Assembly: GCA_001599975.1 (NCBI GenBank)
Contig: BCIO01000002.1
Span: forward strand, 3,917,883 to 3,981,882
Source of the DNA: Cystobasidiopsis lactophilus
Taxonomy: Eukaryota > Basidiomycota > Agaricostilbomycetes > Agaricostilbales > Chionosphaeraceae
Reading direction: 5' to 3'
DNA length: 64,000 nucleotides
The first letter of the stretch is position 1. Each line of letters begins with the position of its first letter. Under the pieces are notes generated by a model. It saw nothing but the letters and a program-made list of their open reading frames with translations. It did not search any database and was not told the DNA's origin. The position numbers and the translations under genes were made by a program. Of the stretch, positions 20,853 to 59,620 are shown piece after piece.

Positions 20853-22225
20853 ATGGCGCAGCTGTTGCAAGAGTCGCAAAGCGTGATTGATGCATACCAA
20901 GGGGCGCAGCTGCACTCGGCGAGCTTGAAGCAGGAGCTGGCGGACCGGCAGGAGAGCGCGCAGACGCACAACTTCACCAACACGTCCGGCGACTCCTGGA
21001 CGGCCATCTCCGCCTCTGACGTGCTCCGGATGGACAGCGAATGCAAGGACAGCAAGGCGTACCTCAAGCAGGTCAAGTTCTCGTGGATGGCAAGTCGCGC
21101 CCACCACCTTTGTTTACTTGCCGGCCTCAGGACCTGACGGGCGGCTGTTGCAGGAATCCAACGTCAAGCGGCGGTTCATGCAGCACATCCTCAACGACAA
21201 GCCGCCCATTAGGGTCATTACAGCAGCGGAGAACGCAGAACTAGGTGCGTTTGCGTGGCCCCTCCATCAGCTCTTGCCATTCTGATATCTTCTCCCTCCA
21301 TTCCACGAACAGAACAGCAAAACCAAGCAAACAAAGAGCACCTCAGGCAGGTCAAGGCCCGGTCGGAGGACCTCAAGACGGAGCTGCACGAGTCGGCCTC
21401 AGCGCTGGATCAAGGTCGGTGGCGGATCCCTTCCTTAGCCAAAGAAGCGGCTAATATGAGTTGACTTACGACAGAGATGCACGATGTCGAGCCCAAGATC
21501 GAGCGGGCCCAGGCGCTATCGAGGTCAATACGTGGCATGGAGCTCGAGTTGGCCAGCCTCCGCAACTCGCGGCCGCAGAGCGAGCGCATCACCATTGCCG
21601 AGGGAAACGTCATCCTGGACGAGCAGGTTTGTGCCCGTCTTCAGGCCTATCATATTGCTCGCCTCACGTTCAAGATGCCATGGGCGAGCAGGTCGCCCAA
21701 ATGCAGGCCGCCAACACTAAGCTCACCACCTCCCGCACCGCGCTGGGCAACCTGCAGAACCGCATCGCCTCCCTCAAGACCGAAGTGGGCGAGCTCGAGG
21801 TGGAGAATGCGTCGACCAGCAAGGCGGCCGCTCTCGCAACTCAGAACCACATCAAGGATGCGGATGGAACTTTGGCCAAGACTAGCAAATGGTCTGTTGT
21901 CACTCTTGTTTCCCGTTTCAAATCACGAAGGAGGTACTAAAGAGGGAGAGTGGGCAGGCTGCAAGCGGTCAAGGCGCTGTTGAGCGACCTGCTCGGCATC
22001 AAGGACATCACCTCGAGCGGCCAGGACCACATCCACATCACGTTCGACGACTTTGCGCTCGCACTCCAATACGAACCCAACACCATGCGCTTTATCCACG
22101 CCCAGCTCATCGACAGTCTTGAGAACATCGACGACCTGGTGGAGGAGGCCGTTCGGTCCGGGGACGTTCGCCGCCTGGTGCGCGAGGTCATCGCTCGGCA
22201 ATACACCAGAGTCTACGGGAACTAG
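20853..22225 (+). CDS. Coiled-coil kinetochore protein, Sos7-like
   Basis: ATG 20853 begins exon 1 (20853-21089). The exon ends before GCAAGT, giving a GC-AG intron that keeps frame with exon 2 (21154-21244: ESNVKRRFMQHILNDKPP, then ITAAENAELE). Later exons are almost wholly heptad-rich coiled coil (EQQNQANKEHLRQVKARSED, MQAANTKLTTSRTALGNL). They end in a compact C-terminal segment (LQAVKALLSDLLGIKDI ... YTRVYGN, stop 22225). The pattern of a KRRFL-type block followed by ENA(E/A)LE and long coiled coils resembles the fungal kinetochore protein Sos7, which works with the Spc105/KNL1 arm. The assignment rests on that short block and overall architecture. Intron 2 (21245-21312) resembles the intron family at 32.8-34.7 kb. 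Confidence 0.55.
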
Positions 22226-31836: not shown

Positions 31837-32799
31837 ATGTCAGAGAAAGAAGCCACTCCGGGTGTTCAGGAAGAAGCTATCCAGCTCGAAGTTGAGGACG
31901 TGAAAGAGCCGACTCCCCAGCCTTCGTCGACCTGGGGCGCTCAAGCAGTGAAGAAGAAGGATGTATTGGGCGATTCGATGGCCAAGCAACGCGGCAAGCG
32001 AATGGTTACTGTCTCCCTTATTGCTTGGTCTTATTCAATACTAATTCATGTTAGGACAGTTTGGAGCCTTGTTAGGCACGCTCAACAAGTTTAAGCAAGA
32101 GACTTCCTCCCAATCCCAAGCTGTAACTTCCCTCCTTTGAATTGGCTTTAATCAATACTGACTAGGGTTACGAAGACACAGAGCAGGCGACAAGTCGAAG
32201 CCAAGCTCGCTTCCAAGCTCAAAGCCGAGTCGGACCAAGTCGAGAAGAAGGCTTCCCGTTCAAGGCAAGAAAGAGGCCTCAAGTTGGACGTCGTCAAAAA
32301 GGCCGAGGAGAAGGCTCTGTCCGAAGCCATTGTTAGTCTCCTCCTTCTTATTGATGCATAGACACTAATAATGGTTGGGGGTTACCAGTTCAAGAGAAAG
32401 CAAACAGCCACGATGGAGTTATCCCACTTCCTCTCGACGAGCCAAGACAGCCCTAGCATCTACTACTTACCCTCCAAGCTCACCCAAAGCCAATCCGATC
32501 GATTAACCACTCAAATCGCAGACGCCAAGCAAACACTCACCGAGGCCCAAGCCGACTTCCAAGTCCACGCGGAGAAGCTGGATAGGGAGTTGGAGGAGCT
32601 CAAGGAGAAGCGGGATCGGGGTTTGGAGGAGATGGAGAGGGAGGACAGGGCGGAGAGGGCGGAGAAGGAGAGGAGGGAGAGGGATAAGGAGGAGGAGGTC
32701 ATGGGCGATAGGAAGAGGGTTAAGAGGGAGGAGCAGGAGAAGAGCGTGACGCCTTTGGGAGTGGAGCAGGAGATGGAGGAGGACGCTGTGGAGTTTTAA
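31837..32799 (+). CDS. Pinin/SDK/MemA-domain splicing-associated protein
   Basis: Four exons (31837-32004, 32060-32122, 32182-32331, 32389-32799) join in frame to 263 residues. The first ends QRGKRM and the second starts FGALLGTLNKFKQE, together the R-M-F-G-x-L-L-G-T-L signature of the pinin/SDK/MemA domain. Exon 3 is Lys/Glu-rich coiled coil. Exon 4 begins FKRKQTATMELSHFL and ends in a very long charged helix (LDRELEELKEKRDRGLEEM) plus an acidic tail. Pinin proteins are nuclear and bind the exon-junction/splicing machinery. The introner-like array starts five bases after the stop codon. Confidence 0.85.
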
Positions 32800-33227
32800 A
32801 AGAGGTTCGTTCCGCTTGCTACAGTATCAGTGTCGAAGTGCTGATGGCGACCCCTGGAGGGATGAACAGCCGGTTGTTGTGTGTTTGCTCGCGGAGGGAG
32901 GACACGGTTCGTGGCGCTCTCACCTTCATCAGCCACCTCACAAGTGCTGATTACACGTACTGCCGCGAACAGATCCCGAACCTACCTCTGACAAAAACAT
33001 GCCTACCACCACATCCTCGACCTTCTCTCCACGCTACACCTCTACCTATGCTCCTACACCCAAGACTTCTGCTCCCAAGACTTCTGTCCCTACATGCGTT
33101 CGTCCATGGCCCTTACTCCATCAGCCCTTTGGACTCCCAAGCTGATGCGGCAGGCTTGGCGCAGAACAGTCCTTCACTTCTGCTCTAGCTCTTCTCTCTT
33201 TTCTCGACACGAATCTTCCGCTTCTCA

Positions 33228-33676
33228 ATGACTAGCTGTACAACTTTTCCCGTGGCTCGTGGCTCCAACCACCCAACCACTCAACAACAACCCAAAAAAG
33301 GGCGTTTTTGCCTTAGAATGACGTTCGTTCCGCTTTTCTACCTCATCAGTGCCCTGAAGAAAGCTGATGATGCAAGATTACCGTTCGAACAGTCTTTGCC
33401 TGTCTGGCTTTTACCGATGCTCACCACCACCACCGACCCGCTTTTTCTGCTTTCACTCGATGATGAACGAGGCAAAGGACAGAGGGTTCGTCCGGTTGCC
33501 TACAGTATCATCTCGTACCCCAACGAGCTGATAATTTTTGATATCGTTGTACGAACAGGGCTTCGCGTCGGGCCAAGCACCACCTCTGCTCACCACCACC
33601 GACCTCTTCCGGTCGCCTTCCCTTCCACCTCTCTCTCTTGGTCTTTTCTGGCACTTTGGAGCTCTGCATTGACTAG
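33228..33676 (+). CDS. Candidate spliced small ORF within the intron array
   Basis: If the segments 33323-33392 and 33486-33558 are removed, an ATG at 33228 reads in one frame through three exons to a TAG at 33674-33676, directly before the next intron. The product is about 100 residues, with two similar CSPPP-centred stretches. No known domain. The exon 33559-33676 is also open in another frame that continues downstream, so only one of the two readings is likely to be coding. Confidence 0.25.
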
Positions 33677-34284
33677 GTTCGTCCGCGTACTGCCCTATCA
33701 ACTTTGAAAGAGAAGCTGATTTGACATGCGTGTTCGTACAGTGTCGCCCTTGGCCTTTGGCTCTCTACCACCCGGTTCTGCGGTCGTTTCAAGCTGTCAA
33801 AAAGAGGTTTTGGAGGAGGTTGGTCGATGCCCTTACACTTCATCAGTTCCCAGAATGGTTCTGATTCTTCAGGTCTCTCGATGACCATCAGCCTAGATGC
33901 GAACTACAACTTCCTCAGCTCTTGCCCCTTTTCAAAGCTTGTGGAGTCGCGATTCAACGGAGGTTGGTCAGACCACTACCTTATCAGTCTTGTTCGACGC
34001 TGATGGGAGGCGGTGTACCAACAGTGGCAAATTTGGCGCTTCGGCCATGGACCTCGGCTTCGTCTCTCTTCCATGCTAAGGGTTCGTCCGGCCCTACCAT
34101 ATCATCTTCATCGAGGAGCTGATATGCTGTTTGATTCACGAACAGCTCCACCAGCCACTTGTGCCTTCGAAAGACTCTTCCAACCCAATCTCAGTCATTT
34201 CTTGCCGGGTTCGTTCACTGCCATACCTCATCATCTTTCCAAAAGCTGATGTACTCGGTAACGTGACGAACAGGTCGTTTTTAG
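33559..34284 (+). CDS. Candidate multi-intron gene of unknown product (5' end unknown)
   Basis: Splicing out five successive array members (33677-33741 to 34209-34273) leaves about 137 codons in one open frame through six exons, ending at TAG 34284. Every exon phase agrees: leftovers of 2, 1, 1, 1 and 1 bases, giving S, G, V, A and G at the joins. Sample segments are VALGLWLSTTRF, SMTISLDANYNFLSSC and FERLFQPNLSHFLP. The agreement of five independent joins supports real splicing. No start codon is found in this frame upstream and no domain is recognised, so the gene may begin farther upstream or be a fragment. Confidence 0.4.
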
Positions 34285-35119
34285 AAAAGTACTTCATCTC
34301 TTCCTCTTCCCCTTGTACACGGCTTCTCTTTCCTAGTGCCACGAAGGTCTCTAGCCTTTCTCCCTTTTGAAATCTTCTCTAACTCTCTTCTTTTGCCCCA
34401 TTTGTCACCTTTTGATCTAGCTCACTCCACTTAGGAGGTGGTTCGGTCCGAGAGGTAGGTGCGAGAACCCACTCGATTATTCCCTCAAGACTGATTGAGT
34501 CGCCTCTTCCCTTACAGCTTTCAGATTGATCCTGTTGCGTAACCCATGCTGCGGGCGGGCGATAAGGCACGAGCTAGTTTGGGGAGTCTGGTGAGTGGCA
34601 ACTTGTCTGCTTCATCAGTCAGAATCGAGCTGATGGCTCTATTTGGTGGCACTACAGAAGGACTCCTTTTAAACTCTACTAAGAGGTGCGTTGCGCTGCT
34701 ACCACATCGTTGTCACCTTGTCTGATTGGCCAAGCGTCAACCTGCACAGGCTCTCCCGGAACCACCGCGCATGCTTCCCTCGGCCAGCTTCCAACCCATT
34801 GAATTAGACTCAGTAGTGTCTTGCAAGTTTGTTTTCTGCTTTGGCGAAGTTGCAACCTGAGGTCTCGCCACTTGAGTCGCGCCACCCGCAGGCTGCGCGC
34901 TGACGCGATTCTTGCTGAGCCTCGCTCTGTTCTCTCAAACGGAGCCTGGGCTGTCTTCATCTACGTCGATTTGAAAGCTTGCTGCGCGCTATTGAGACTG
35001 GACTTGTGATGTGGTCCGGGACCGCCACCGACAGCTCGCAAATTGCGTCAGGCATGAAGGAAGCCTGCACTGCTTGACTCCGCGCCACCAGGTCCTCTCT
35101 CTCCGCGTCCTTTTCCAAA
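34285..35119. other. Interval with two more array introns, no clear gene
   Basis: Contains array members 34591-34657 and 34686-34749 and an ordinary-looking intron (34453-34519, GTAGGT...TTACAG). Exons around these are open only over short distances. The rest is the upstream region of the gene at 35120. Confidence 0.4.
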
Positions 35120-36175
35120 ATGCTTGATGTCTTGAATCGCGGGCCACGCGAGCGCTTCGCCAACCTCAAAATCAAAGCGGCCAATCTCCTCAGTTCGGAT
35201 CCGAAGGGAGATTTCGAGGAGCTGAAGAGTTCGCCTGATGAGATGCCAGCCTTGACCCCTGTCCAAGTTCAAAGGGCTTTGGTGATTCTGGATGGGATCT
35301 TGGGCGCTCTGATGAGCTCGGCCGAACATGTTTTGCGCGACAAGCAAGACCAACTGTGTCGGATGGCCCACGTCCCAATCGGGTCCGACCCTCCTCGCTT
35401 CGCGCAGAGCAACTCAATGCAGGCGCAATTGCAGTACCATCGGATTCGAAAAGGCGCACGGATTGTGAGGGCCTACTGGTCCAACCTGCACTTCGGTCGA
35501 CTGCTCGTCCAACAAGCGCGCTTGTTGTCTGACCCTTACGAGCACGCTATGTTCGCCCTCACAGACCAGCAATGCGTCTTTGGCAGCATTTTGATGGCTG
35601 TCGATGAGGCCAGTCAAACTCGCAAACAAGGTTCCACTGATGAGCGCAAGTTTCACTTTCGCCTTTGCGCGGCAACCACTCACAAGTCTAGTCCAGTCTG
35701 GAATACCTTGGCAGCTCTTACGTTCCTGGTCAGAATGCCGACGCTGTCCACAGGAAAGGTCATGAGGCATGTGCAGTTGCCCTCCTCCTCCTCTTGTTCG
35801 ATGCCTGAACGACGCTGGTGATGTGCAGATCTCAGACCACATCTACGACGTTTCGCGGCGCCTATGGGTCCCAGAGTACACGCGGAGGTTTTGGGTGTGC
35901 TACGCGCTGGGCAAGGTTAACCTCTGTCGGGCGGTGGTGGCCAGGCCTGGCTTTCAAAGGGCAGCCCGGTGGGGAACGTACGGAAAAAAGTGCGACCTCA
36001 TCAAGAACTCGCTCACTGTCCTCGACTCGAACTTTGCCGAGTGGGTAAGCGGGGTTTTCTTATCTGACACTGCGAGGCGCCAAGGCAGCGAGTTCACTGA
36101 GTTGTCCAGGAAGCAGCCAAGAAGAGTGCAAGAAAGGTCCTCACATCTGCAGAGCAGTCCGGCTCGACCGTGTAA
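35120..36175 (+). pseudogene. Unknown-family paralogue A, probably decayed
   Basis: ATG 35120 opens exon 1 (to about 35645), encoding LVILDGILGALMSSAEHVL and YEHAMFALTDQQCVFGSIL, then VDEASQTRKQGSTDE. The 3' part gives VPEYTRRFWVCYALGKVNL, CRAVVARPGF and, after an intron (GTAAGC...GTCCAG), EAAKKSARKVLTSAEQSG before TAA 36175. Each block has a counterpart in paralogue B (39034-40283). In the middle, the stretch matching B is readable as LEYLGSSYVPGQNADAV ... VALLLLLFDA but lies in a different frame from both neighbours, and no splice site resolves it. Either the gene is disabled by two frame breaks or the sequence has errors. No domain is recognised. Confidence 0.5.
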
Positions 36176-38105: not shown

Positions 38106-38185
38106 GGCAAGCTATTAGAGCGGCCACTGGGTAACAGTAAGTTTTCCATTAGAACCTAAGACGAGAGCGTCTCTAATAGTTTGCC
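38106..38185. repeat. Small inverted repeat
   Basis: GGCAAGCTATTAGAG (38106-38120) and CTCTAATAGTTTGCC (38171-38185) are complementary over 15 bases with one mismatch, and the match continues outward (TTAAGT against ACTTA) with one extra base. The 50-base interior has no coding frame. It could be a MITE-like remnant or a transcript hairpin. Confidence 0.65.
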
Positions 38186-38470
38186 GACTTACAGCTGCCT
38201 ACGCGCCTTTTCAAAAGGTATTAGGTTCAACACGCAGAACGAGCGTGCGGGATGCCCGGTGGTCAGAAATCATCCACATTTTTTTTGTCGCCGAGTGCCA
38301 ATGTTGTTGTTGTCGGAGATGGAAGTGTTTGCCCTCTTTTTTTTTGCTGCTGTTCGCCCTTCAGGCACGGCCTATCGTTTTAAGATGCTCAACTAGACAC
38401 CCCGTCTTCCCGTCCTGGCCCCAAACAGTCGGATTCCACGCCACGAACAACAGACCAGAGCAGAAGGGGA

Positions 38471-39033: not shown

Positions 39034-40283
39034 TTGGGTTTGCGTCATCGAGGTTTGGCTCATCCAAAGCTTGAAACTCTGGCATCGTGGACTCAAAGGA
39101 CCTCAGACCACCCCGCTCTTCTGGCTGGCACCAATTTTGCACCTTGCACTTTAACACCGTCGTTATTGAACACGTCTGGTTTACTTGATCACTGGCGTGG
39201 TGGCCTCGTGGGCAAGCTCAAGAGACAGGCGGCCGCGCCCAGCAAGTCAGACTCGACCGAGAAGCCCGGCAAATCCCTCTCGGCCACGCAGCCTTTGGAT
39301 TCTACTCAGGTCATTCGAGCTTTGGCAAGGCTAGATGGCCTTCTGGTGCCCTTCATCTGCGCTTCGGCTGATGTCTGCAACGACAAGTTTGCGGACATCC
39401 GCCAAGTGTTGGGTCAGCCGTATAGCCAAGCGATTCCCACTTATCCGACTTACATGTCGCTGCAAACTTCGGTCGAGTTGAGCAAGATTTGGAAGCCCGC
39501 GATGATCGTCTGGGAATACTACAACGTCCTAGATGGATCCCGTGCCCTCTTCCAGCGAGCAAGCTCTCGGCCCGATCCATACCAGCATGCCATTGTGGCG
39601 CTCACACTTCGACAAAGCGCGTTCGGTACAATTTTGAAGGCTATTGACGAGGCGAGCGGCATGATCAAGCAAGGCTCGACCGAGGAGTGTGAGTTTTCCT
39701 TCTTCGCAACCACGGTCGTTGATCCATCCGGCTGAGCTGATTCGCAGTGGCTCATTGGATTCTGGAATACTTGAGCGATCCCTCCAACCCTGTCCCTTCG
39801 GACAACGACCTCTACAAGAAAGTTCATCAAGTGATCCGCCTTTTCGCTGCATTCTTTTTCAATCCACTTATCAGAGATTATTGCTGGCAGATTTCGATCC
39901 ACATTTTCGACATTTCGTGCTTGGCATCGGACTCGAGCTTGGGAGGAGTTCCCGAGTACAAGTGGTGGATGCTTGAGGCCCGTGAAAAGGTCGACGTGTG
40001 CAGGGCAATCGTTGCTCGACCAGGCTTCATCAGTGCTCTCAAAGACAAGAAGAACAAGCGCAGGAATGCCGAGCTGGCCAAAGTTGCGCAGGTAGTCTTG
40101 AAGCAGAACTTGGTAGAACGGGTAAGTGCAGCAGTCGCCGTTGTCGAGTTCGGGGTCGGACGGGCTCATCATCTCTCCCAGAAAGCTGCTTTCGACGACA
40201 GGCAAGCCGAGTTGGAGGATGCGGCCAAGGCAGACCGCGATGGTAGGCTGGCAGACTACTCGGGCTCCCTGGGCACCGATTGA
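39034..40283 (+). CDS. Unknown-family paralogue B
   Basis: Three exons: up to 39688, 39748-40121 and 40182-40283 (GTGAGT...CGCAG and GTAAGT...CCCAG introns), ending at TGA 40283. Blocks shared with paralogue A are LARLDGLLVPFICASADV, YQHAIVALTLRQSAFGTIL, KAIDEASGMIKQGSTEE, VPEYKWWMLEAREKVDV and CRAIVARPGF. Between them B has an intact helical region (WILEYLSDPSNPVPSDND, then LFAAFFFNPLIRDYCW). The start is unresolved: the frame is open from 39034 but has no ATG before residue ~130, and the position matching A's ATG is TTA, so a 5' exon must lie upstream. The C-terminus is a charged helix. No known domain; soluble and mainly helical by composition. Confidence 0.65.
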
Positions 40284-45125: not shown

Positions 45126-46845
45126 ATGTCGACTGCCGTCTACAAGGAAGTTCCTTTATCTGATGGCCTGGACGATGAGCCTCAGCATCATTTTCCGGCC
45201 TTGCGCTCTTCGTTCTTCAAAAGGCATCGGCGGGTGAGCAACCGCCCTGGCGATTCTCTCAAGCTTGTCAATGTCTTTGAGCTGATACTCCTTTCCGCGC
45301 TAGATCCTTGTGATCATTCTCCTGGGATGGCTCGTTGGCGTGGCCCTTCCCTGGACTCTGCTTTTCCTCCAATGGGCCAAGCCAACGCTTCCCGAGGTTG
45401 CGCCAGCGGTGACGCCAGTGCCAGAATATCGACCCATTATCACGCCGCCCTTCCGGGACTTCAAAAGCTCAGATATTGCCATCTCTCTCAAGACTGGTGC
45501 CAGCGTGATCGACAAGCGGCTCGGTGTGCACTTGGACGAAGAGCTGGCCAACATTTCCTTCCCTTTCCAGGTCAGCTTGCCATACTCTTCGTTCTGTTCT
45601 TTCAACTTGTCGGAGACTCAATATGATGCTCAGATCTATAGCGACTACGGCCAGACCTTTCGTGGCCACCAAGTAATCGATGTGTTGGCATCCGTGCCAG
45701 ATCGGGTCCACGGTCAACCCGATTTCAAGCCTTATGCCATCCAGAAGAGTCAGTTAGATAAAGGTACTCCGGTGGACCAGCTTGAAGGGGCTTGGTCGCT
45801 CGACAAGTACGTATTTGGCGACCTTGCAGCAGGCCTTGGTCTGATTTTGTTTCAAAACTAGATACAAGTTTTTGCCAATGCTGGCTGATTTCTACAAACG
45901 CTTTCCGGACGCCCTCTGGTATGTCAACATCGAGGCAGATTCCTACTTGTTCCTGGAAAACCTCGTCCGCTGGCTCGCTCCGCTTGACCCTTCAGGCCAA
46001 AGCCTGTTTGGTTCCCCGATATTGATTGAGGATTGCGGGTGTTGGTTTGCCCATGGTGGTAAGTGTCAAAGCTCTCCTGCTTTTAAAGTGGCTCTGACAC
46101 TGTTCCTGAGACAGGCAGCGGCTACGTCCTAAGCAAAGGATTGATGGATGCCACCTTTGGCGCGCAAGCGGATCATATGGCCAACGTGATGGTCGATTTT
46201 CAAGCCAACGCTTGCTGCGGAGACGAGATCTTGGCGCGAGCGCTTTACTCGGCCCCTGGCGTGCAGATCAAGGCTCCGGCCGGCATCAGCCACCAGCTCT
46301 TTTCCGGCGAGACACCTACAAGCGAGCGCTACACCGCCGAGAACTGGTGTCTTCCGCTGATGGTCTTTCACCATGTCACTCCGGCGGAGATCGCTAAGCT
46401 CCACGCCTTTGAGCACGAGTTCTTCGCCAAGCTCTTTGCCAACGACTTCATCCGCCACTCCGATATCTTTGGTGCCTTTGCGCCCGACTTTTGGCTCATG
46501 GACTACTCAAAGGGGACGCAAGAGACCGTCACTCTGGATTGGGAGAACCGTGCGGAGCAACGGCGGGTCGACGCCCGAAGTGGAGAGCCCTACGACGCCG
46601 ACTTCTGCCAGCGAGCTTGCGAGAAGGAGACAACTTGTTGGATGTGGCAGTTCCGACACAACGACGAGGGGCCAGAATGCCAGCTGGGATTGGACTTGAT
46701 GCGCATTGGAGCACGTCGAGATGGCTTCACCTCTGGCTGGCGCCTGGATCGGATCCGCACCTTCCGTCAAGCTCAAGACTGCGAAGTCAGGCACTTGCAG
46801 ACCGACCATGCATTTTCCGTCGACCCGTGGAAGTTGCCCGTTTGA
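45126..46845 (+). CDS. GT31-like type II glycosyltransferase, copy 1
   Basis: ATG 45126 begins a 36-residue cytosolic exon (45126-45233). A GTGAGC...CTAG intron follows, then the membrane anchor ILVIILLGWLVGVALPWTLL from 45304. The lumenal catalytic part has the fungal GT31/fringe-like order: LKTGASVIDKRLGVH, VYSDYGQTF-type IYSDYGQTF, WYVNIEADSYLFLENL (E-A-D in place of D-x-D), WFAHGGSGYVLSKGLMD, CCGDEILARAL, NWCLPLMVFHH. The last ~90 residues form a cysteine-rich PAN/apple-like module (DADFCQRACEKETTCWMWQF ... CQLG) seen in all three copies. Golgi location is implied by topology. The acceptor is unknown. At least four introns. Confidence 0.85.
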
Positions 46846-47333
46846 CCGCCGCTTCGCCTCTTGTAATGCCTTCAATCGCTGGCACAAGAGAACGGAGGCG
46901 CAAGACAGACGCTACGTACTGGTGAGACCTAGCTTGAGCCGCTGTTGTACAACCACAGAACCTGACACATCTGTGATTGCACAGCCGCGTTGCGTTGCAT
47001 TTTCGCCGATATTCTAAGAAGGTTGCCAACTCGACTTTTCTTGCTCTTCGACCATCGGTCCCTCTTGATCTCCGGTATACAAATCGACTCGAGCGAGGAA
47101 CGGCATCAGGCCCGGCAGCCCGACGCCTAAATCTTCACCTCGGCGTCACCAAACGCTAGAAGACGTTTTTTGGCCTCGTCTGCACGGAGGGCACCGTATC
47201 TCTACCTTCTCTTCTCTCCGCTGCTGTTCTTCGATATCATCCTCGCCTACAGCGACTCCAAGCGGCCTCGTTATTGCCCGGCCCCCGAAGCATTGCATCC
47301 CTCATCGTCGCGCTTCAGCACCCTCACAGCATC
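46846..47333. other. Intergenic between GT31 copies 1 and 2
   Basis: 488 bases holding the 3' end of copy 1 and the promoter of copy 2. Nothing else supported. Confidence 0.5.
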
Positions 47334-49113
47334 ATGGTCAAAGCTACGCCATCATACATCGAGCTATCTCAACCGGACGCGTTTGACGATAAACCTCTCC
47401 TCAGTCCGCGCTCGCGCTTTGCCAACCGAAATCCATTGCTGGCGCCGCGCTCCAACAGCTTTGCGCATCGGCATTTCCCCGTAAGAATGTGCCCTTGCAC
47501 GTCTCGGTCCCGCCAGACTAATTGCGGACATTGCAGACTCTGCTGATTCTACTCATCGGATGCCTTGTTGGGACCATTTTGCCCTGGGCCCTTCTCTTCA
47601 TTCAATACCGCGCCAAAACCGGCTTCTTCTCGTCCTCCAGACCTGCTCTTCTAGTCCCTTCACCTTCTTTGCGACCTTTCGAGCATGATGAAGTCGTGCT
47701 CACCATCAAAACGGGCGCCAGCGTCATCAACGAGCGACTGGGTGCTCACCTAGACCACGAGCTCGCACACTTCGATCACCCGTTCCTCGTCTACAGCGAC
47801 TACGGACAGATGTTTCGGGACGTGCCAGTAATCGACATCCTCGCGGGCGTGGCGGATACGTTTCGCGATGCCGAGGACTTTAAGCCATGTAAGCTTCCTT
47901 CTTGCGCCGGCTGCTTCCCCGGTTCCCTCAGCAAGATGCTACCATCCCTTTCCCTGGCTTTCTTTACTCTAAGAGTGATGAAGGCTGATTGCTGGGCTCT
48001 TCCGATTCCAGATTTTTTCCAAAAGGAGCAGCTCACCACCGGCGCTTCAATTGATGGATTGCAAGGCCACGCCCTTGACAAGTTCAAGTTCATACCGATG
48101 ATCGATGTAAGGAAAGTCCTTCTCGGGGCGGAAAGCCCGTTTTTGACCAAGCTAGCGCACAGCACGCCTACCGTCAATACCCGGACGCCAAGTGGCTCAT
48201 CAACATGGACGGGGACTCCTTCATCTTTCTTCCCAACTTGTTGCGCTGGCTATCGTCTTTCGATTCCTCCACCCAGTTGCTGTTTGGTCACCCAGAGGGC
48301 ATCTCCAATGGGTCAGTTCTTCTTTCGAATTCGAGCTCTGCTCGATGGGCTCTGATGTTCATTGAGCACAGTGACCTCTTTGCGCACGGCGGATCTGGAT
48401 ACGTCATCTCCAAGGGCTTGCTGGACCAAACGTTTGGAGCGAACCGTGAGCATATGCTTACCACTCAAAACGGAGCTCTGGAGGGCTCGTGTTGCGGAGA
48501 CATGGAGCTGGCGCTGGCCATGTTCCACACGAACGGCGTCCACATTCGAAGTCCCTCTGGCGTTGGCCACAACCTCTTTGCTGGCGCTCCTCCGACTGGG
48601 CCATTGGGCTATCGCTTCGAGCGCAAGACCTGGTGCATGCCGTCCTTCTCCTTCCACCATCTGACCAGCGACCACATCGCCCAGCTCCACCAATTCCAGA
48701 CCAACTTTTTCCCTAAACTTTACCCAACTGACTTCATCCGCTACAAGGACGTTTTCGAAGCATTTGCCCCGTCCTTCCTGCTGCACAACTACACGCAAGG
48801 GTGGGACAGCACAGTTACCCAAAATTGGTCCAACGAAGCAGACCAACGGCTTGTGGACGCCGAAGACGACGAGCCGTACGACGCCGAATTCTGCGAGCGC
48901 GCCTGTTCAAGGGACGGCGAGTGCTGGGCTTGGAAGTTCCGCCCGCCCGCCCAAGAGGACAAAGCAGAGTGCCACATTGATTTTGGGGCCTTCCGACTGG
49001 GCGCTGCGGAACAAGGGGTTACCTCGGGCTGGCGACTCGACCGGTTGCGACACTTCCGTGAGACAGACACGCGGGCGTCTTGCGAAGGCGAGCGTCTTTT
49101 CCGGACCTTGTAA
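47334..49113 (+). CDS. GT31-like type II glycosyltransferase, copy 2
   Basis: ATG 47334 begins a 49-residue cytosolic exon (MVKATPSYIELSQPDAF ... FAHRHFP). GTAAGA...TTGCAG leads to the anchor TLLILLIGCLVGTILPWALL. Catalytic blocks are LTIKTGASVINERLGAH, VYSDYGQMF, WLINMDGDSFIFLPNLLRW (a true D-x-D), FAHGGSGYVISKGLLD, CCGDMELALAMF, WCMPSFSFHHLTSDHI. The C-terminal cysteine module is present (DAEFCERACSRDGECWAWKF ... CHIDFG), stop 49113. It lies in tandem with copies 1 and 3 on the same strand, with the same intron before the anchor, so the trio arose by tandem duplication. Confidence 0.85.
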
Positions 49114-49770
49114 CAGTAGATGTATTATACGTAGACGCTGCGACTTGGCTTGTACCAATTTAAGGAGTGCGCCTTTGCCACCGCCTCAGCGGCTCAGCCT
49201 GCCAGCTTCCGGGCGAGCGACCTTTGCTTTTGGTCCACGTCCTTCGCGTTCCGAATGGTCTTCGTAAAGCTTGCTTATAGCTAATGATTGTCATTTTGGT
49301 TTGACTGCATCCCAAATGCGTTTGGAGTCTACATACTTGGCAATCGGCTCTGCCAGGTCACTTCGCCTTTCCTCTGACTCTGCCCTTCCTGCCAGCGTTT
49401 CGGTCTAAACAGTACACCAAGTTTCGCGCAATCTACAAACAGTTCGTATGCATCGATGCACTGTATACTGTTTGATGGTTGTCGTAACGCATTCGAGCGA
49501 CCGCATTTTGGTCAGAGAGTCGAACGAGCCTGGCTGGACCTTCAAATGCTGTGCCTGATTGCTGGCGTTTGCCTTTCTACTACGTCTTGGCCTGCTCTGA
49601 ACTAGTTGAATGGACAGCAAGAAAGCCTGCCCGCCATGAGAAGGCCAAGAATGCGTTCATTTCTGGACGTTCAGACTGTTTCGTTGGTGGCGTTCACACT
49701 GTTTCTTCCCATTCAGGCAGAGGTGTCTTCGGCTTTCATTGAGTCTTTTGCTCTATCTGCAACCACGAAT
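49114..49770. other. Intergenic between GT31 copies 2 and 3
   Basis: About 660 bases containing TTTGCCACC at 49174-49182. No gene supported. Confidence 0.5.
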
Positions 49771-51390
49771 ATGATCCAGTTCCCCTATAAGCGGCTTCCG
49801 GGGGATGAGGTTCTGGTTCTGCCTGGAGGTGCACACACGCCACGCTCATCTCCTGGCAGAAAAGAAGGACGAGTCAGTAGGCCATTCTACTTGAACTAGG
49901 GTCAAGTGCTGAGTAATAAGCTAGGTCCTCGCGCTCCTGCTTGTCTGTGTTCTGGTAGCATCTCTTCCGGGAGCGTCGTTCTTTTATCCACGAAACACGT
50001 CCCAGCACCCTTGGGAGATCGGTCTCAGGACCTACAATATAGAACCAGCCATCAGAAGGTGAGACCCAGTCGTGCAACGAGGTTTGGCTGATCCCGCTTC
50101 CAGATTCGAGCCTGACGAGATTGCGCTAACCATCAAAACCGGCGCTAGCGTTATCAAGCAACGCCTTGGGATCCACTTTTTACACGAGCTTGCCAACTTC
50201 TCTTATGGCATGCAGGTATATTCCGACTACGGCCAAAAGTTCCAAGGGCTTGATGTTATCGACATTCTCGCCAACGCTCCAGAGCGCGTCCACGACCAGG
50301 AAGACTTCCAGCCGTACTTCAAACAGAAGCAAGCTTTGGATAATGGGATCCTTACGGGCACCTTGGACGCGGCGCAAAGTTGGCGTCTTGACAAGTACAA
50401 GCCTTTGCTCCTAATGGATGTGCGTCAGTCCGTCAAGTACTATCATTCGGCTCTTGAAGTCACGACGACAGGAAGCTTTCACACGGTTCCCAAAGGCTCA
50501 GTGGTACATCAACGGGGACGCGGACACCTTCTTCTTTATCGACAATCTTCTTCGTTTCCTGGGCCAATTGGATTCCTCGAATCAGGTTCTTCTTGGGAAT
50601 CCTAAGCCTATTACTAATGGCCAGTGGTTCGCGCATGGAGGTGTGTTCATCGAGGCCCGAAGGATACTCGTCAGCTGAATTGGATGTCGCAGGCAGCGGC
50701 TACGTCTTGTCTCGCGGCTTGATGGACGCCACCTATGGCCAACATCGCGAACATATGAACACTGTCCAGGTGGATGCCCAAGCCCATGCTTGCTGTGGCG
50801 ATATGGAGCTGTGCCTCGCCATTTACTCTACCCCAGGCGTACGCCTCACCGCTCCCGAAGAACTCTCCCATAATTTATTCGCCGACGACACTCCCTACCA
50901 GCACCAATACCATCCCAGGAACTGGTGCCTTCCTTCCTTCAGCTTCCACCACATCACTCCTGACGACGTTGTCAAGCTCCACCGTTTCGAGCGAGCCTTC
51001 TTTCCTCGGCTTGCCCCCGGCGACTTCATCCGTTATGCGGATGTATTTCAGGCCTTTGCGCCGGATCATCTGATCGAAGACTACAAGGACGGACTCCGCT
51101 CGTCCTTTGCCGCCCGATGGGCAAATGGAGCCGACCAGATGCGGATCGGCCCCGAAGCTGACAAACCGTATGACGCCAACTTTTGTGAACGAAAGTGTGA
51201 AAGTCTCGGGTGGTGCTGGATGTGGCAGTTCAAGCAAACCGACGAGGGCGGCGAGTGTCACTTGGACTCGGAGCTCGTACGCATCGGGGTCGCCAAGGAG
51301 GGCTTCACCTCAGGCTGGCATCTGGGGCGGCTACGGGCATTCCGGCAGAGTCAGTACTGCGAAAGAGACTGGGGGTCTGTGGGCCTTTGA
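49771..51390 (+). CDS. GT31-like type II glycosyltransferase, copy 3
   Basis: ATG 49771 opens a 34-residue exon (MIQFPYKRLPGDEVLVL). GTCAGT...GCTAG leads to the anchor VLALLLVCVLVASLPG from 49925, then a GTGAGA...TTCCAG intron to the catalytic part: EIALTIKTGASVIKQRLG, VYSDYGQKF, WYINGDADTFFFIDNLLRF (D-A-D), WFAHGG/AGSGYVLSRGLMD, CCGDMELCLAI, NWCLPSFSFHHITPDDV. The cysteine module follows (DANFCERKCESLGWCWMWQF ... CHLDSELV), stop 51390. The start is chosen because its exon length and the intron just before the anchor match copies 1 and 2; an earlier ATG at 49606 is in frame but has no counterpart in the other copies. Confidence 0.83.
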
Positions 51391-51759
51391 GAATCGGCCT
51401 GGACAGTGGACTTCTTCCTCATTAGCAGTCGTCACCTTCAGCTTGTAGAGTTTACCGCCTTCTTTATAGTTGCGCAACCCAAGAGCTACACGTCAAATTC
51501 AGAAAGAGCGTCAGCGAGCTACAAAGGATCGGAGGAGACCACCACGTCTAATGAGGGTAACAGCTGCACAAAGCTAGAGTGGTATTGGTACAGACAACAA
51601 TCACAGACAAGCATTGTCCGTTGAGAAGCGGGTTGATAGATCGTGCAGGACGGGAGAGCTGGTTCTAGGAAAAGATGCGCACGCTCTCAACCTCCCAACT
51701 GGGCACACAGGCAGACCTGTCAGCTGATTTCGAGCAAGAGTGTAGAGCGCCACGACTTA
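51391..51759. other. Convergent intergenic region
   Basis: 369 bases between the stops of GT31 copy 3 and GH16 copy 1. Nothing supported. Confidence 0.5.
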
Positions 51760-53505
51760 CTAAGCATTCCTGTAATGCGAAGCAGACTTGACGTAGTCCG
51801 AGGCAGATCCAGGGCAGCCATCAGCGTTGTAGACAGCGCCGGCCCAGTCGCCTGAGGCACAACATCAGACCAAAGGCCAGAGGAGTAAGGCCTGTCGCTC
51901 ACCGTTCAACGTGGTGTCGAAGATGATGGTCTGGTTGCTGAAAAAGTCGCCACTGCAGGTAGAGCTCGACCAGAAGGCGACCGGCTTTCCCCAGGTGGAA
52001 GGAATGGGGCGGGCCCGGCGAAGGTCCCAAGGGATCTTGTTGTACGGGAAGAACCAGACCGAGACTGTACATAGTGCATGAGCACTTGGGCCTGTGCATG
52101 AAGGAGGGCATTGAGAAACTTACTGCCGCTGTCGTCTGTGGCCGATACTTTCCACCTGAGCAAAGTTCTCCTTGCTAACAGTGAATCCACCTACTCCAAA
52201 GGGTAGCAAACGCTCCTCCACCAGCCTTGTTGAAACCCTGTAGGAAGATTAGACTTAGACCTTAGCGCTTGGAACGAGAAATCCACCCACCGGCCCGTAG
52301 CTCTTCTTGGAGGGATCTTGGATGCCACAGCCCGTGTTGCCGTTTGCATACGCATAGCAGTCAGTAGCTAGGACCTGAAAGGGTAGACAAAGTCCGTAGG
52401 TCAGTCAAGACCAAAAGATGGGAGCGCCACCACGGACCGTGCCGGTGCCCTCCATCGGCAGCTTGGTAGTGCAACCTTGCCCAGTGTGCAGAGTGTACTG
52501 ATTTTGCGTGAGGCTGCATAAAAGTTGGACATGTGAGTGGCGCACAAGAGGTCCAAAGAGGAAGACTTTTACGTGTTGACGCCTTCGACACTGTGGTGCT
52601 CAAGTCTCCAATCAGGATTCAATCGCATTGGGAAGATAGGGTCAACCGCACATATCAATCTCTCCGCCGTAGGGCCAGTTTCCTGTCAGAGCGACGACGT
52701 GAGCTTTAGTCCGGGGTCACGAAAGGAGGGAGGGCACTGACCTCCGACAGTCCAAAAAGCACTGGGTCGTTTCAGGGACATCGTCAGCGTTCAGTTCTCT
52801 GTTACAGTAGCTACAAGGAGTGCTCACGGCCAGGTAGTGCACCTGTTTGAAGGAGGCCCCAAAATCAGCTCGACGGCTCCTTTTTGGCGAGGAAGAGGAA
52901 TGGCAAAAACGCACCCGGTAGGAATGTGCGTGGCAGTCATGACGACCATCTGGCCCTTGACAAAAGGCGTCTTGGACGTGATGCGGACCGAGTCGCGGTT
53001 GGCGCCCGAGCGGAGGTTGGAGAAGTCGTCGACCTTCATGTACGCCTTGCCGTTCTTGACGAAGGCCAGCGGGTTCTTCTTGCGCATGGCCGTCGACTTG
53101 CTAACATAGTTGACTTGGCCGTGAGTCGCTGCAAGGGACAAAGGATGCGCAATTGCGCGCCACACCCAGTCAGGAATTTGGGGTTCGCTAGAAAAATGCC
53201 AAGCAATAGACGCACGATCAGCATCCGTGAACTGTGCAGTTGTACCAACGCATCAGCATCTGCTCGCAGTCCTGAAGACAAAGGGCCACACGCACAAAGT
53301 CCCACGAATCAAAGAAGTTTGCGCCTTGGATGTTTTGGCGAAGGGTCATGGCGGTGGCCGCTGCCCGCTTGGCCAGACCCCCGTCATCCTCGTCCTCCAG
53401 GCCACGCGCGGCGTACACATTCAGGTAGTCGCTGTCGTCGCCGAGCTGGGCCAGCGCAGACAAGGGAGCGAGCATGCCCGCGACGAGCAAAGTGGCTGCC
53501 AGCAT
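51760..53505 (-). CDS. Secreted GH16 glucanase/transglycosylase, copy 1
   Basis: ATG 53505 gives a signal peptide (MLAATLLVAGMLAPLSALAQ). GH16 blocks follow through about eight exons: NIQGANFFDSWDFV, ATHGQVNYVSKSTAMRK, GKAYMKVDDFSNL, RDSVRITSKTPF, and the catalytic motif E-I-D-I-V-E, which is split by an intron between the Asp and final Glu codons (about 52646-52577) and is intact after joining. The C-terminal part has AYANGNTGCGIQDPS, WFFPYNKIPWDL, PVAFWSSSTCSGDFF, TIIFDTTLNGDWAGAVY and SASDYVKSA, stop TAG 51760. Such fungal enzymes act on beta-1,3/1,6-glucans of the cell wall. No GPI signal is seen. Closely similar to copy 2 at 56126-57805. Confidence 0.88.
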
Positions 53506-56125: not shown

Positions 56126-57805
56126 CTAGGCATCCTTGTAGTGAGAGGCAGACATGACATAGTCCGACGCGCTTCCTGGACAGAATTGGGAGTAGACGTT
56201 CCCAGCCCAGTCGCCTTTAACACAACACCATCATTAGGGCATAGGGCGTAACAAGAAGCAGACCCTTACCGTTTATGGTAGTGTCGAAGATGATTGTTTG
56301 ATCGGCGAAGAAAGAGGAAGCGCAGGTGCTCGTTGACCAGAAAGCGACTGGTTCGCACCAGCTGGATGGCACAGGTCGGCCGATGCGCAAGTCCAGTGGG
56401 ATCTTGTTGCGGGGAAAGAACCAAATGGAAACTAGCAAAGGCCACATGAGAGCCCGGGCGAGCTCATGCAATTCGAAAAACTGACTGCCATCATCGTCTG
56501 GCCGTGGCGTCAGCTCAGGGGGATTATCAATCACATGAAGAAGCGCACTCCACAAAGTCGCAAACGTGCCACCTCCGTTCTTGTTGAATCCCTGTGTGAC
56601 AACTTTGAACCTTGAGCTGGAAAATAGGGCAGCCGCCTACTGGTCCAAAGCTCTGGGTCGAAGGATCTTTGATGCCACAGCCCGCGCCATTATTCGCATA
56701 CGCGTAACAATCGGTGAGTAGGACCTACGCAGAATCAGTGATGGCAGCACCGTGATGCAGGCCAAGACTGACCTCGCCGGTACCGTTCATCGGAAGTGTA
56801 GTGGTACAGCCATCGCCAGTGTGTAAGGTGTACTGATTTTGGGTGATACTTGTGGGTCGTCGGTGCATGTTTGTGCGAACGCAAATTGTGAAGAGGCTCA
56901 CTTGTGCACCCCCTCGACGCTGAGCCTTCGTCAATCGACTGCATCTTTGCGCCCGACAGAAGTCACCTCACATGTCAATCTCGCCAGCATAAGGCCAATC
57001 CGCTTTGAAAATGGAAGACAAAGGTTGTTGGCTCCGTTGCTACTTGACCACACGCCAAGATGCGTAGCTCACCTCCCAAACCGAGGGTCCAAAATGCACT
57101 GCGGCCACATTGGAAAGACGTTGTGAGTAGATAGAAAGCGCTACTTCAGATGAGGCGCTCACGGCCAAGTAGTGCATCTGAGCAACAGTCGTACGCCTCG
57201 CATCAGCTGCATAGATCATCTGCCAAGCATCACTCACCCTGTTGGGATGTGACTGGCGTCGAGTACAAGCAACTGGCCCTTGACCAATGGCGCCTTGGAA
57301 GTGATGCGAACCGAGTCTCGATTGACGCCCGAGCCAAGATCAGTAAAATCGTCAACCTTCATGTACGCCTTGCCATTCTTGACGAAGGCCAGCGGGTTCT
57401 TCTTGCGCATGGCCGTGGTCTTGTTCACGTAGTTGACTTGGCCGTGAGTAGCTGCAGTCAAAGCGGCGGAGTAAGGGCCTGTTCACAGAAAGCAGCCTCG
57501 AGCAAACGCGAACGATCAGGGTCCGTAAACTGGGGTCAAATCGCCCTCGTGTAAGCGATTCTTACTTTGACGGGTCTTGGAGGACGAGTGCGCACAAAGT
57601 CAAAAGCATCGAAGAAATGGGTGCCTTGAATGCGCGTCTGCAGCTTCATCGGCTTCGCAGGCACTTTGATCTTGATGATTTGCTTGCGCAGGCTCGTGCT
57701 GCCGACCCCAATGACGTGCAGGTTAGTGCCATACTTTTCCAGTTGTGCCCTAGCAAGCGAAGGAGCTAGAACACAGGCAGCTGCGACCAATCTGCCAGCG
57801 CGCAT
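56126..57805 (-). CDS. Secreted GH16 glucanase/transglycosylase, copy 2
   Basis: ATG 57805 encodes a signal peptide (RLVAAACVLAPSLARAQ). Blocks: RIQGTHFFDAFDFV, ATHGQVNYVNKTTAMRK, GKAYMKVDDFTDL, RDSVRITSKAPLVKGQ, and the catalytic E-I-D-I-V-E, again split by an intron after the Asp codon (GTGAGG donor about 56971; acceptor before VEGVHK). The end has WFFPRNKIPLDL, PVAFWSTSTCASSFF, TIIFDTTING and SASDYVMSA, stop TAG 56126. The intron positions mirror copy 1, so the pair is a gene duplication now separated by the unrelated gene at 53856. A wall-glucan role is inferred from the family. Confidence 0.87.
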
Positions 57806-58386: not shown

Positions 58387-59620
58387 CTAGGCGAACCAAC
58401 GCAAATAGGCACAACGCACAGTTATAGCAATCAGTCCGTCATCCAGGGTCGCCAACTTCTTGAACGCGGACGGCGAAAGGTCAATGTGCGTCGCCTCGCA
58501 CCCTTCGCAGCGATCCACGACGTCGACCGAGATCGACCGGCTCTTGTACTTGATGTTGATAGTCCGCCCCTGAAGCCGTCGCGTGAGCCATGACAATCTT
58601 AAGAGGGCCAAAGCACAGGGAGCGCACGCAGATGGGGTTGAGATTCGGGTTCGCAGTGGCGCCCGGCCAAGAGTCGTACACAAGCTTGCTCACGGCAACG
58701 ACGTATTCCGTGTCGCTGTTGACCTGGCCGCAAGCTCCGAGGCCGACCTCATACCACGTCGCCTGCCCACTGATCCACCCCGTCGGCGCCGCAACGGCGG
58801 TGGTGCTGGAAACCTGAGGCGTAGAGGTCGTTTTTGTCGTTACTTTCTTGCTGCTGGTGGGAGCAGCTGTTGTTTTCGTTGATGATTTTGATGATGATTT
58901 CGTTGAAGACTTGGTAGCGGTGGTGCTCGTGTCGACACGGAACCACGTCGTCGTGCTCTTTTTTGAGGCAGAAGCAGAACTCGATCTTGAGGATGACGCC
59001 ACTGAAGACGTCCCAGAGTTCAAATTGCGGGTAATGGAAGAGCGTTGGGAAGAGGAGGACGGCAAGGAGGAGCCGGAGGACGAAAAGGTAGCTGCCGTGG
59101 TGGCCGCATATGAACGCTGGGCAAAATGCGACAAGGGGTGGAAGCGGCCAACTCACGTCCATTGACGCAGTACGTGTATCCAAGCCACAGGTTGGAGCAG
59201 GAGGAGTCGAGGTTCGTATTCCAGACCTGGAGCATGGTCCAGCTCGTGAGGTGGTACTCCATCGCCAAGCCGTAGCAGGTGTCGCCAGATTGGACGGTGT
59301 GAAATTGCGTGCAACCCTCCGCCGTTGATAGAGTGCCGTTCATAAGTCTCTTGCTGAGTTGGCCTGTATGGTCGCGCGCCAGCTCATCAGTCGGGTTCAA
59401 TGGGCCAAAAAACAAAGCGGAACTGCAACGCACCCATACTCCGCCGTGCGATCACGGGCAAGTGTTGATCCGCCTTTTGCAGCAAGTAGCGCTCTGCCAG
59501 AGAGTGCCGCTTCTTCATGCCGTAGGCGTAGTGCTGGCTGTTGAGATCGCTGACCATCTTCCCCTCCACGTCTGCTAAACCGCTGGCTAGCAGCAGCGCC
59601 GCAGATAACCACGTCAACAT
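58387..59620 (-). CDS. Secreted LysM plus expansin-like (double-psi barrel) protein
   Basis: ATG 59620 gives a signal peptide (MLTWLSAALLLASGLADV). A second exon carries one LysM chitin-binding domain: GCTQFHTVQSGDTCYGLAME, then QVWNTNLDSSCSNLWLGYTY and CVNG. A long Ser/Thr/Lys-rich linker (many TSK and SST repeats, likely O-glycosylated) follows. The C-terminal double-psi beta-barrel is of the RlpA/barwin/expansin type: SGQATWYEVGLGACGQVNSD, then NIKYKSRSISVDVVDRCEGC and HIDLSPSAFKKLATLDDGLI. At least three introns. The final residues after LIAIT may be intronic (GTGCGT donor), so the stop at 58387 is provisional. The product probably binds chitin and loosens or remodels the wall without hydrolysis. 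Confidence 0.85.

Follow-up and report, generated by a model that had tools for sequence, protein, structure and literature searches.

The origin of new spliceosomal introns is an old open question, and the closest described systems come from introns that occur as related copies. The introner-like elements of Dothideomycetes are reported as hundreds of near-identical copies that degenerate fast (PMC4457414), and fungal introner-like elements are described as having seamless borders and a predicted stable structure (PMC8469720). Symmetrical stwintrons come from Xylariales (PMC8469720, PMC12403724), and in the portions of an introner survey available to us the only fungi named are Pezizomycotina (ascomycetes), an outlier there without terminal inverted repeats (TIRs) or target-site duplications (TSDs) (PMC9860276). 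In Cryptococcus, introns have been reported both from untranslated regions (UTRs) and from transcribed stretches that show no obvious coding (PMC5851062), and cryptic introns recruit silencing in long non-coding RNAs (lncRNAs) of fission yeast (PMC7229227). Here, we describe an array of intron-like elements lying next to a pinin-like gene in a stretch of 64,000 nt of Cystobasidiopsis lactophilus contig BCIO01000002.1 (the window; positions are counted from its first nucleotide). We think it fairly likely that this array consists of 13 U2-type introns that are homologous and belong to an introner-like family, within a transcribed non-coding stretch that would be either the pinin 3' UTR or a separate lncRNA.

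Between positions 32,805 and 34,749 we identified 13 intron-like segments of 62-73 nt, irregularly spaced and on the + strand throughout (Table 1). An earlier note on this sequence had listed twelve, of 54-73 nt; the array itself is real, and its count and lengths are corrected here. Every element is built like a short fungal intron, with a GTNNGT donor, a CTGAT branch site placed 25-31 nt from the element end (counted from its C) and a CAG acceptor. The longer motifs put forward in that note are found in part of the array: the donor GTTCGT(C/T)C is exact in 7/13 elements (GTTCGT in 8/13), the acceptor CGAACAG in 5/13 (AACAG in 8/13), and the central inverted pair, ATCA...CTGAT, is present in 11/13. 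Elements 11-13 are the weakest members. The GTNNGT-CTGAT-CAG pattern occurs 13 times on the + strand of the array and never on the - strand, compared with a mean of 0.015 and a maximum of 1 among 200 Markov sequences that follow the composition of the array, an expectation that serves as a guide only, the pattern and its distances having been fixed after the elements were seen. Elsewhere in the window the pattern occurs once on the + strand and five times on the - strand; four of these sites (21245, 59433, 53295 and 52914) are intron donors in our gene models and two (57237 and 19442) are not. The ATCA...CTGAT inverted pair has 23 matches over both strands of the whole window, against 5.07 expected, a number reached by none of 100 shuffles. 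Of the predicted coding introns, 42 have a CTRAY branch site: CTGAC in 19, CTGAT in 14, CTAAT in 5 and CTAAC in 4.

Sequence comparisons support the elements as related introns, as the earlier note had proposed, and not as unrelated ones merely sharing splice signals. The pairwise local-alignment score between elements has a mean of 17.6, compared with 12.4 after shuffling, and the two best pairs, 33486/34082 and 32805/33323, both score 35, where the largest score in 60 shuffles is 25. The first of these pairs is alike over most of its length and the second over the 5' two thirds. The 5' linker (from the donor to the inner stem described below) and the loop are each more alike than any of 200 shuffles, in a test for which the segment taken as the 5' linker of 34082 extends too far and runs into the stem. 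The borders are seamless, with the likeness between elements stopping at the splice sites: border-anchored 30-nt exon flanks have identities of 0.265 and 0.269, against 0.264 predicted by composition, and the sole exception is the final base of the exon (0.72, mostly G). Mean column identity is 53% over the 13 elements and 57% over the first ten, and the most conserved letters are those of the donor, branch site and acceptor.

The elements are additionally predicted to share a two-stem fold. When folded alone, all 13 pair their first G with the C before the terminal AG (nt -3), which is found in 6/38 confident coding introns (Fisher p 6e-8). The predicted outer stem joins donor nt 1-6 with nt -8 to -3, and the predicted inner stem, ATCA/TGAT, contains the branch site. 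Donors pair better with their own acceptors (5.15 of 6 positions) than with swapped ones (4.46), a difference reached by 0/20,000 permutations, or by 4/20,000 if Watson-Crick pairs alone are counted. The pairs at nt 3/-5 are TA in nine elements, AT in element 11, GC in element 13 and GT in one, with one unpaired, and those at nt 4/-6 are CG in nine, GC in two and GT in one, again with one unpaired. In a ten-row alignment, 1/500 shuffles attains the proportion of paired cells (89.8%), and likewise 1/500 the covariation score. Folded together with 30-nt exon flanks, the elements have a donor-acceptor pairing probability of 0.49, compared with 0.07 in the 38 coding introns, and their branch site is unpaired with a probability of 0.18, compared with 0.46. 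These co-changing paired ends suggest that the structure itself has been kept, whether for copying or for splicing control.

We also scanned the window for this architecture, defined as an end stem plus a branch site within an unbroken helix, with GTNNG, CTRAY and YAG as the only fixed letters. The strictest setting returned five matches, four array elements and a lone non-coding element at 38137 (mean 0.12 in 25 Markov controls). The loosest (controls 0.96) returned 6/13 elements, 38137, a site at 1348 (-) and the coding introns at 21245, 21415 and 17468 (-), together with a second start at 21249 that overlaps 21245. An Rfam search of the window gave no match at gathering scores, and none up to E 5 within 32700-35130.

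The coding introns used for comparison derive from gene models with 81 predicted introns in 18 genes, of which the 38 confident ones combine a CTRAY branch site, a G at nt 5 and a pyrimidine ahead of the AG. The finder that placed them uses codon usage and general splice signals, and is independent of structure and of the array sequence. End pairing as a general trait of the coding introns of this species is not claimed, its signals being weak or mixed: over all 81 introns, own ends pair at 3.35 against 3.13 swapped (25/5000; duplex energy 23/5000), and the confident set of 38 gives a non-significant pair count (416/5000) with a duplex energy of 92/5000.

The exon-like segments between the elements are probably non-coding, as judged from their sequence. 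With the elements removed, stops interrupt all forward frames (15, 15 and 9 in 484, 484 and 483 codons), and the longest frame opened by ATG has 101 codons, compared with a shuffled mean of 98. In the forward frames the codon scores of the segments range from -0.21 to -0.23, and in reverse from -0.34 to -0.39; the corresponding values are -0.25 to -0.36 for two other non-coding stretches and -0.003 to 0.06 for real coding exons nearby. The gene finder, which uses neither structure nor the array, called no gene from the pinin exon up to 39454. An early reading of the exons used slightly different borders for elements 6, 7, 11 and 12, and the fold z-scores used such borders for element 7. By eye, the segment between elements 4 and 5 (33393-33485) has complementary ends, CTTTGCCT near its start and AGGCAAAG near its end.

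Upstream, the array adjoins the pinin-like gene, whose identity, suggested in the earlier note, is supported by a Pinin_SDK_memA match (PF04696, E 1e-23) in a Pfam search of the product spliced by eye. The donor of element 1 lies 5 nt downstream of the pinin stop codon, and therefore a read-through pinin transcript would hold 13 introns in its 3' UTR. This position, the non-coding appearance of the exons and the stem-like inverted pairs with some two-sided changes go beyond what that note had recorded. The array is unlikely to be the 5' leader of the uncharacterised gene that starts at 35120 and bounds it downstream, as 15 ATGs precede that gene in the spliced stretch.

We identified possible relatives of the elements elsewhere in the window with a covariance model built from elements 1-10 (model R1), the E-values of which are rough, coming from a short calibration. 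Beyond its own ten, R1 finds elements 12 and 13 and one coding intron, within a kinetochore gene with a Sos7 domain (Table 1); the Sos7 match (residues 70-144) runs across this intron, 21245-21312, so its border is supported. Sos7 being a fungal protein, the match also suggests a fungal source, and the density of predicted introns would fit a basidiomycete; a solved-structure search with the permease gave no match at 1e-10. Weaker matches are the coding introns at 41293 (E 0.30), 21415 (E 0.35) and 41870 (E 2.4). In total, 29 matches outside the array have E <=10, of which 7 coincide at both ends with a predicted coding intron and 22 do not. Copies in unrelated genes of the 64-kb window amount to one clear coding relative and some weaker ones. 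In blastn of the array against the rest of the window, we found two chance-level matches (E 0.29 each), and none before the paralogous gene at 39 kb. Searches for relatives of the Sos7 protein in a genome-contig collection and of pinin in a viral-contig collection returned 17 and 15 pattern stretches, respectively, none of which were confirmed.

Several results weigh against the reading of the array as homologous introns with a conserved two-stem fold in a transcribed non-coding stretch. Transcription of the stretch and splicing of the elements are predictions from sequence. The gene finder is crude, having scored the real last pinin exon at 1.7 and missed the 35120 gene, and because of this the exons are called likely non-coding; the finder also counts CTRAY and CAG, together with a G at nt 5 and a T at nt 6, in an intron's favour, so the control introns are not independent of splice signals. 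The outer stem is uneven, with nt 1-6 paired in 13, 12, 12, 12, 11 and 7 of the 13 elements, and for the five elements that lack a GTTCGT donor the advantage of own over swapped ends is reached by 708/20,000 permutations. In the ten-row alignment, the two pairs changed on both sides are matched by 81/500 shuffles; for the number of pair types the figure is 142/500. Four of the six inner-stem pairs are invariant, inner-stem covariation on swapping is not significant (1645/20,000), and the layer inside the outer stem has no covariation (9202/20,000 swaps). In exon context, the outer pairing is lost (below 0.05) in 5/13 elements, and donor openness is equal overall (0.26 in the elements, 0.29 in coding introns). 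For three of the 13 folds, stability does not clearly exceed that of shuffles (z 0.35, -0.04 and -0.84, the first for element 33819, entered one base short), and the architecture scan takes fewer than half of the elements even at its loosest. The 3' linker, after the branch site, shows no homology (181/200 shuffles as high), and part of the likeness between elements could be convergence on the same signals.

This last possibility may be extended to the whole array, if the introns arose separately in a fast-evolving non-coding transcript and converged through selection on splicing behaviour, with no introner-like copying. We consider this unlikely. Conservation being strongest at the donor, branch site and acceptor would fit it, as would the unrelated 3' linkers and the occurrence of the two-stem architecture in other letters elsewhere in the window (21415 and 38137); however, the best pairs of elements are alike beyond the signals, as 33486/34082 and 32805/33323 illustrate, the 5' linkers are more alike than shuffles (with the reservation on 34082 given above), and one invariant C stands a few bases upstream of the inner stem, at a position that belongs to no splice signal.

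Tandem duplication of a unit of exon plus intron, followed by loss of the likeness between exons as in a decayed repeat gene, appears to us less probable again. All copies face the same direction, elements further apart in the array are slightly less alike (Mantel r -0.27, 165/5000), and the mean exon-exon score lies slightly above the shuffled one (14.5 vs 13.5, sd 0.28), each of which such a history would produce. Against this, the exon flanks match at the level expected by composition, last base apart, the best exon pair scores 29, equal to the largest shuffled score, and exon lengths range from 28 to 181 nt. The best exon pairs are mostly pyrimidine-rich or CACC-rich stretches. A repeat listing of the sequence (Tandem Repeats Finder was not run) has seven short families only and no tandem family, and together with the non-homologous flanks and irregular spacing this speaks against a simple tandem repeat, which the earlier note had named as a refuting case.

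We regard as very unlikely an origin from short DNA transposons resembling miniature inverted-repeat transposable elements, with terminal inverted repeats and with splice signals present by chance. The ends are complementary as such elements require (GTTCGT/ACGAAC), over only ~6 nt, and introner families with TIRs have been published (72/177 in PMC9860276, as far as that source was available). However, there is no TSD at the borders (own run 1.92, swapped 1.96; 3620/5000), the array has 13 plus and 0 minus copies, the six minus-strand R1 matches within it each overlapping a near-palindromic plus copy, and the two arms of the outer stem change together, unlike plain decay of transposon ends. 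The divergence of the copies and this lack of a TSD also do not support a recent burst, and the local burst of intron gain suggested in the earlier note is not upheld. The weakest explanation, which we find highly improbable, is a mirtron-like cluster of spliced and debranched introns entering a small-RNA pathway as hairpins with a 2-nt AG 3' overhang: mirtrons have paired ends with AG as a 2-nt 3' overhang and a long, nearly continuous duplex, and the elements, clustered in apparently non-coding sequence, do combine a length of 62-73 nt with a G1 paired to nt -3 and AG overhanging in 13/13, but this pairing follows directly from the outer stem and their helices, interrupted by internal loops, run unbroken for 4-10 bp at most, short of the usual Dicer substrate.

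Returning to the favoured reading, of homologous introner-like introns in a non-coding transcript, the copies would derive from a common intron through local, same-direction copying, most easily by an RNA step such as reverse splicing or the placing of intron RNA in a break, and may then have diverged with little constraint beyond the signals and stems. All 13 elements face one direction without protein constraint, with seamless borders and no TSD, and RNA copying therefore fits better than DNA transposition; related introns in the same direction where protein selection cannot orient them provide a more direct argument for copying at the RNA level than do copies in coding genes. Local duplication of the intron alone could also have produced the copies. 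The U1 small nuclear RNA must bind the donor site, which is here covered by the predicted outer stem, and since the stem must therefore open, it would act mainly before commitment, as a brake on splicing, or after excision, when it may hold together the ends of the debranched intron. "Introner-like" seems a fair name for how the array would work, and the array is a candidate member of that class.

A further proposal, which we put forward as a doubtful one, is that the array is an intron nursery, a non-coding transcript in which end-paired introns would multiply via an RNA step along transcription, with single copies reaching coding genes such as that encoding the Sos7-domain protein, and that pinin would limit itself by nonsense-mediated decay (NMD). 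Pinin is a splicing and exon-junction factor, and if the array is in its 3' UTR, the spliced introns would make the pinin message an NMD target, limiting that message. The locus would then exemplify a splicing factor that, through its own activity, tests the message encoding it.

Within the pinin-like gene, intron 2 (32123-32181, placed by eye) has an apparent acceptor ~24 nt past its branch site, with a nearer TAG skipped, and carries GTAAC and GTTAC close to its two ends. Downstream of the array, 35120-35764 and 39151-39690 are parts of two paralogous genes (39.7% amino acid identity over 131 aa, E 4e-26), neither of which lies above the Pfam cut-off (the second matches ENOD40 below it, E 0.03); the lone element at 38137-38194 lies upstream of the second paralogue. 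Further along the window, three adjacent predicted genes at 45126-51448 are apparent tandem copies with a common stretch IKTGASVI, the middle one with a piece that matches Fringe-like and with PAN_4 below cut-off. A predicted secreted protein at 51665-53505, with 13 predicted introns in 1.8 kb, is glucanase-like by our own reading (0 Pfam families), and a predicted stretch at 57234-57649 is related to it. Finally, a predicted gene at 58387-59557 has LysM and DPBB/expansin-like matches.

Table 1. Positions of the array elements, of their candidate relatives and of the adjoining gene in the window.
Feature	Start	End	Strand	Length (nt)	Ends	Remarks
Element 1	32805	32869	+	65	GTTCGT..ATGAACAG	
Element 2	32907	32972	+	66	GTTCGT..GCGAACAG	Fold z -4.3 vs shuffles
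Element 3	33098	33169	+	72		Inner stem CATCAGC/GCTGATG
Element 4	33323	33392	+	70	GTTCGT..TCGAACAG	
Element 5	33486	33558	+	73	GTTCGT..ACGAACAG	Aligns with element 9 along its length
Element 6	33677	33741	+	65		
Element 7	33819	33891	+	73	GTTGGT..GACCATCAG	Predicted outer-stem pair C4-G changed on both sides to G4-C
Element 8	33963	34024	+	62	GTTGGT..ACCAACAG	C4-G to G4-C on both sides, as element 7
Element 9	34082	34145	+	64	GTTCGT..ACGAACAG	
Element 10	34209	34273	+	65	GTTCGT..ACGAACAG	Fold z -4.9
Element 11	34455	34517	+	63	GTAGGT..CTTACAG	Weaker member; missed by model R1 at E <=10
Element 12	34591	34657	+	67	GTGAGT..CACTACAG	E 8.7e-4 with model R1, built without it
Element 13	34686	34749	+	64	GTGCGT..CTGCACAG	E 0.053 with model R1, built without it
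Twelve exon-like segments between elements	32870	34685	+	28-181 each, 1076 total		61% pyrimidine
Predicted coding intron, array-family relative	21245	21312	+			In Sos7-domain kinetochore gene 20853-22225; R1 E 0.0022
Predicted coding intron, Sos7-domain gene	21415	21474	+			Two-stem architecture in other letters: GTCG/CGAC, TTAGCC/GGCTAA
Lone non-coding element	38137	38194	+			Same architecture in other letters: GTAAGT/ACTTAC, ATTAGA/TCTAAT
Pinin-like gene (Pinin_SDK_memA)	31837	32799	+			3 introns placed by eye; stop codon 32797-32799

In the literature covered (titles and abstract openings, with few subscription papers), we found no side-by-side array of related, end-paired non-coding introns, and no control of pinin via 3' UTR introns. 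The comparisons that follow are with the cited accounts as far as they were available to us. As in the introner-like elements of Dothideomycetes (PMC4457414), the members of the array are mutually related and, by prediction, GT-AG spliceosomal introns; the array differs in that its 13 copies are diverged, neighbour one another in what looks like non-coding sequence and are known from the 64-kb window alone. The yeast zipper and downstream stems (PMC12350175) are also intron stems and alter the distances between splice signals, whereas the stems predicted here sit on the splice sites themselves. Euglenid introns of the conventional/intermediate kind are likewise bordered by GT-AG; the nonconventional ones have variable, non-canonical borders (PMC4770533), unlike the GT-CAG borders found in 13/13 elements, the CTGAT branch site and the relatedness of the copies. 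The introners with TIRs of algae and protists (PMC9860276, PMC7789003) resemble the array in that an inverted repeat lies at either end of a repeated intron, and differ in that many of their families have TSDs (49/130) and co-opted splice sites. Finally, symmetrical stwintrons and cropped sister introns with near-terminal inverted repeats (NTIRE; PMC8469720, PMC12403724) share with the array complementary ends that join the terminal Gs, a few compensatory changes and the lack of TSDs. The stwintrons are ~185 nt long, nested and located in genes, and the 62-73 nt elements leave little room for a nested second intron. Their NTIRE overlaps the donor at nt 5-6 only, whereas the outer stem predicted for the array spans the donor from nt 1 onwards and is accompanied by a second predicted stem in which the branch site lies.

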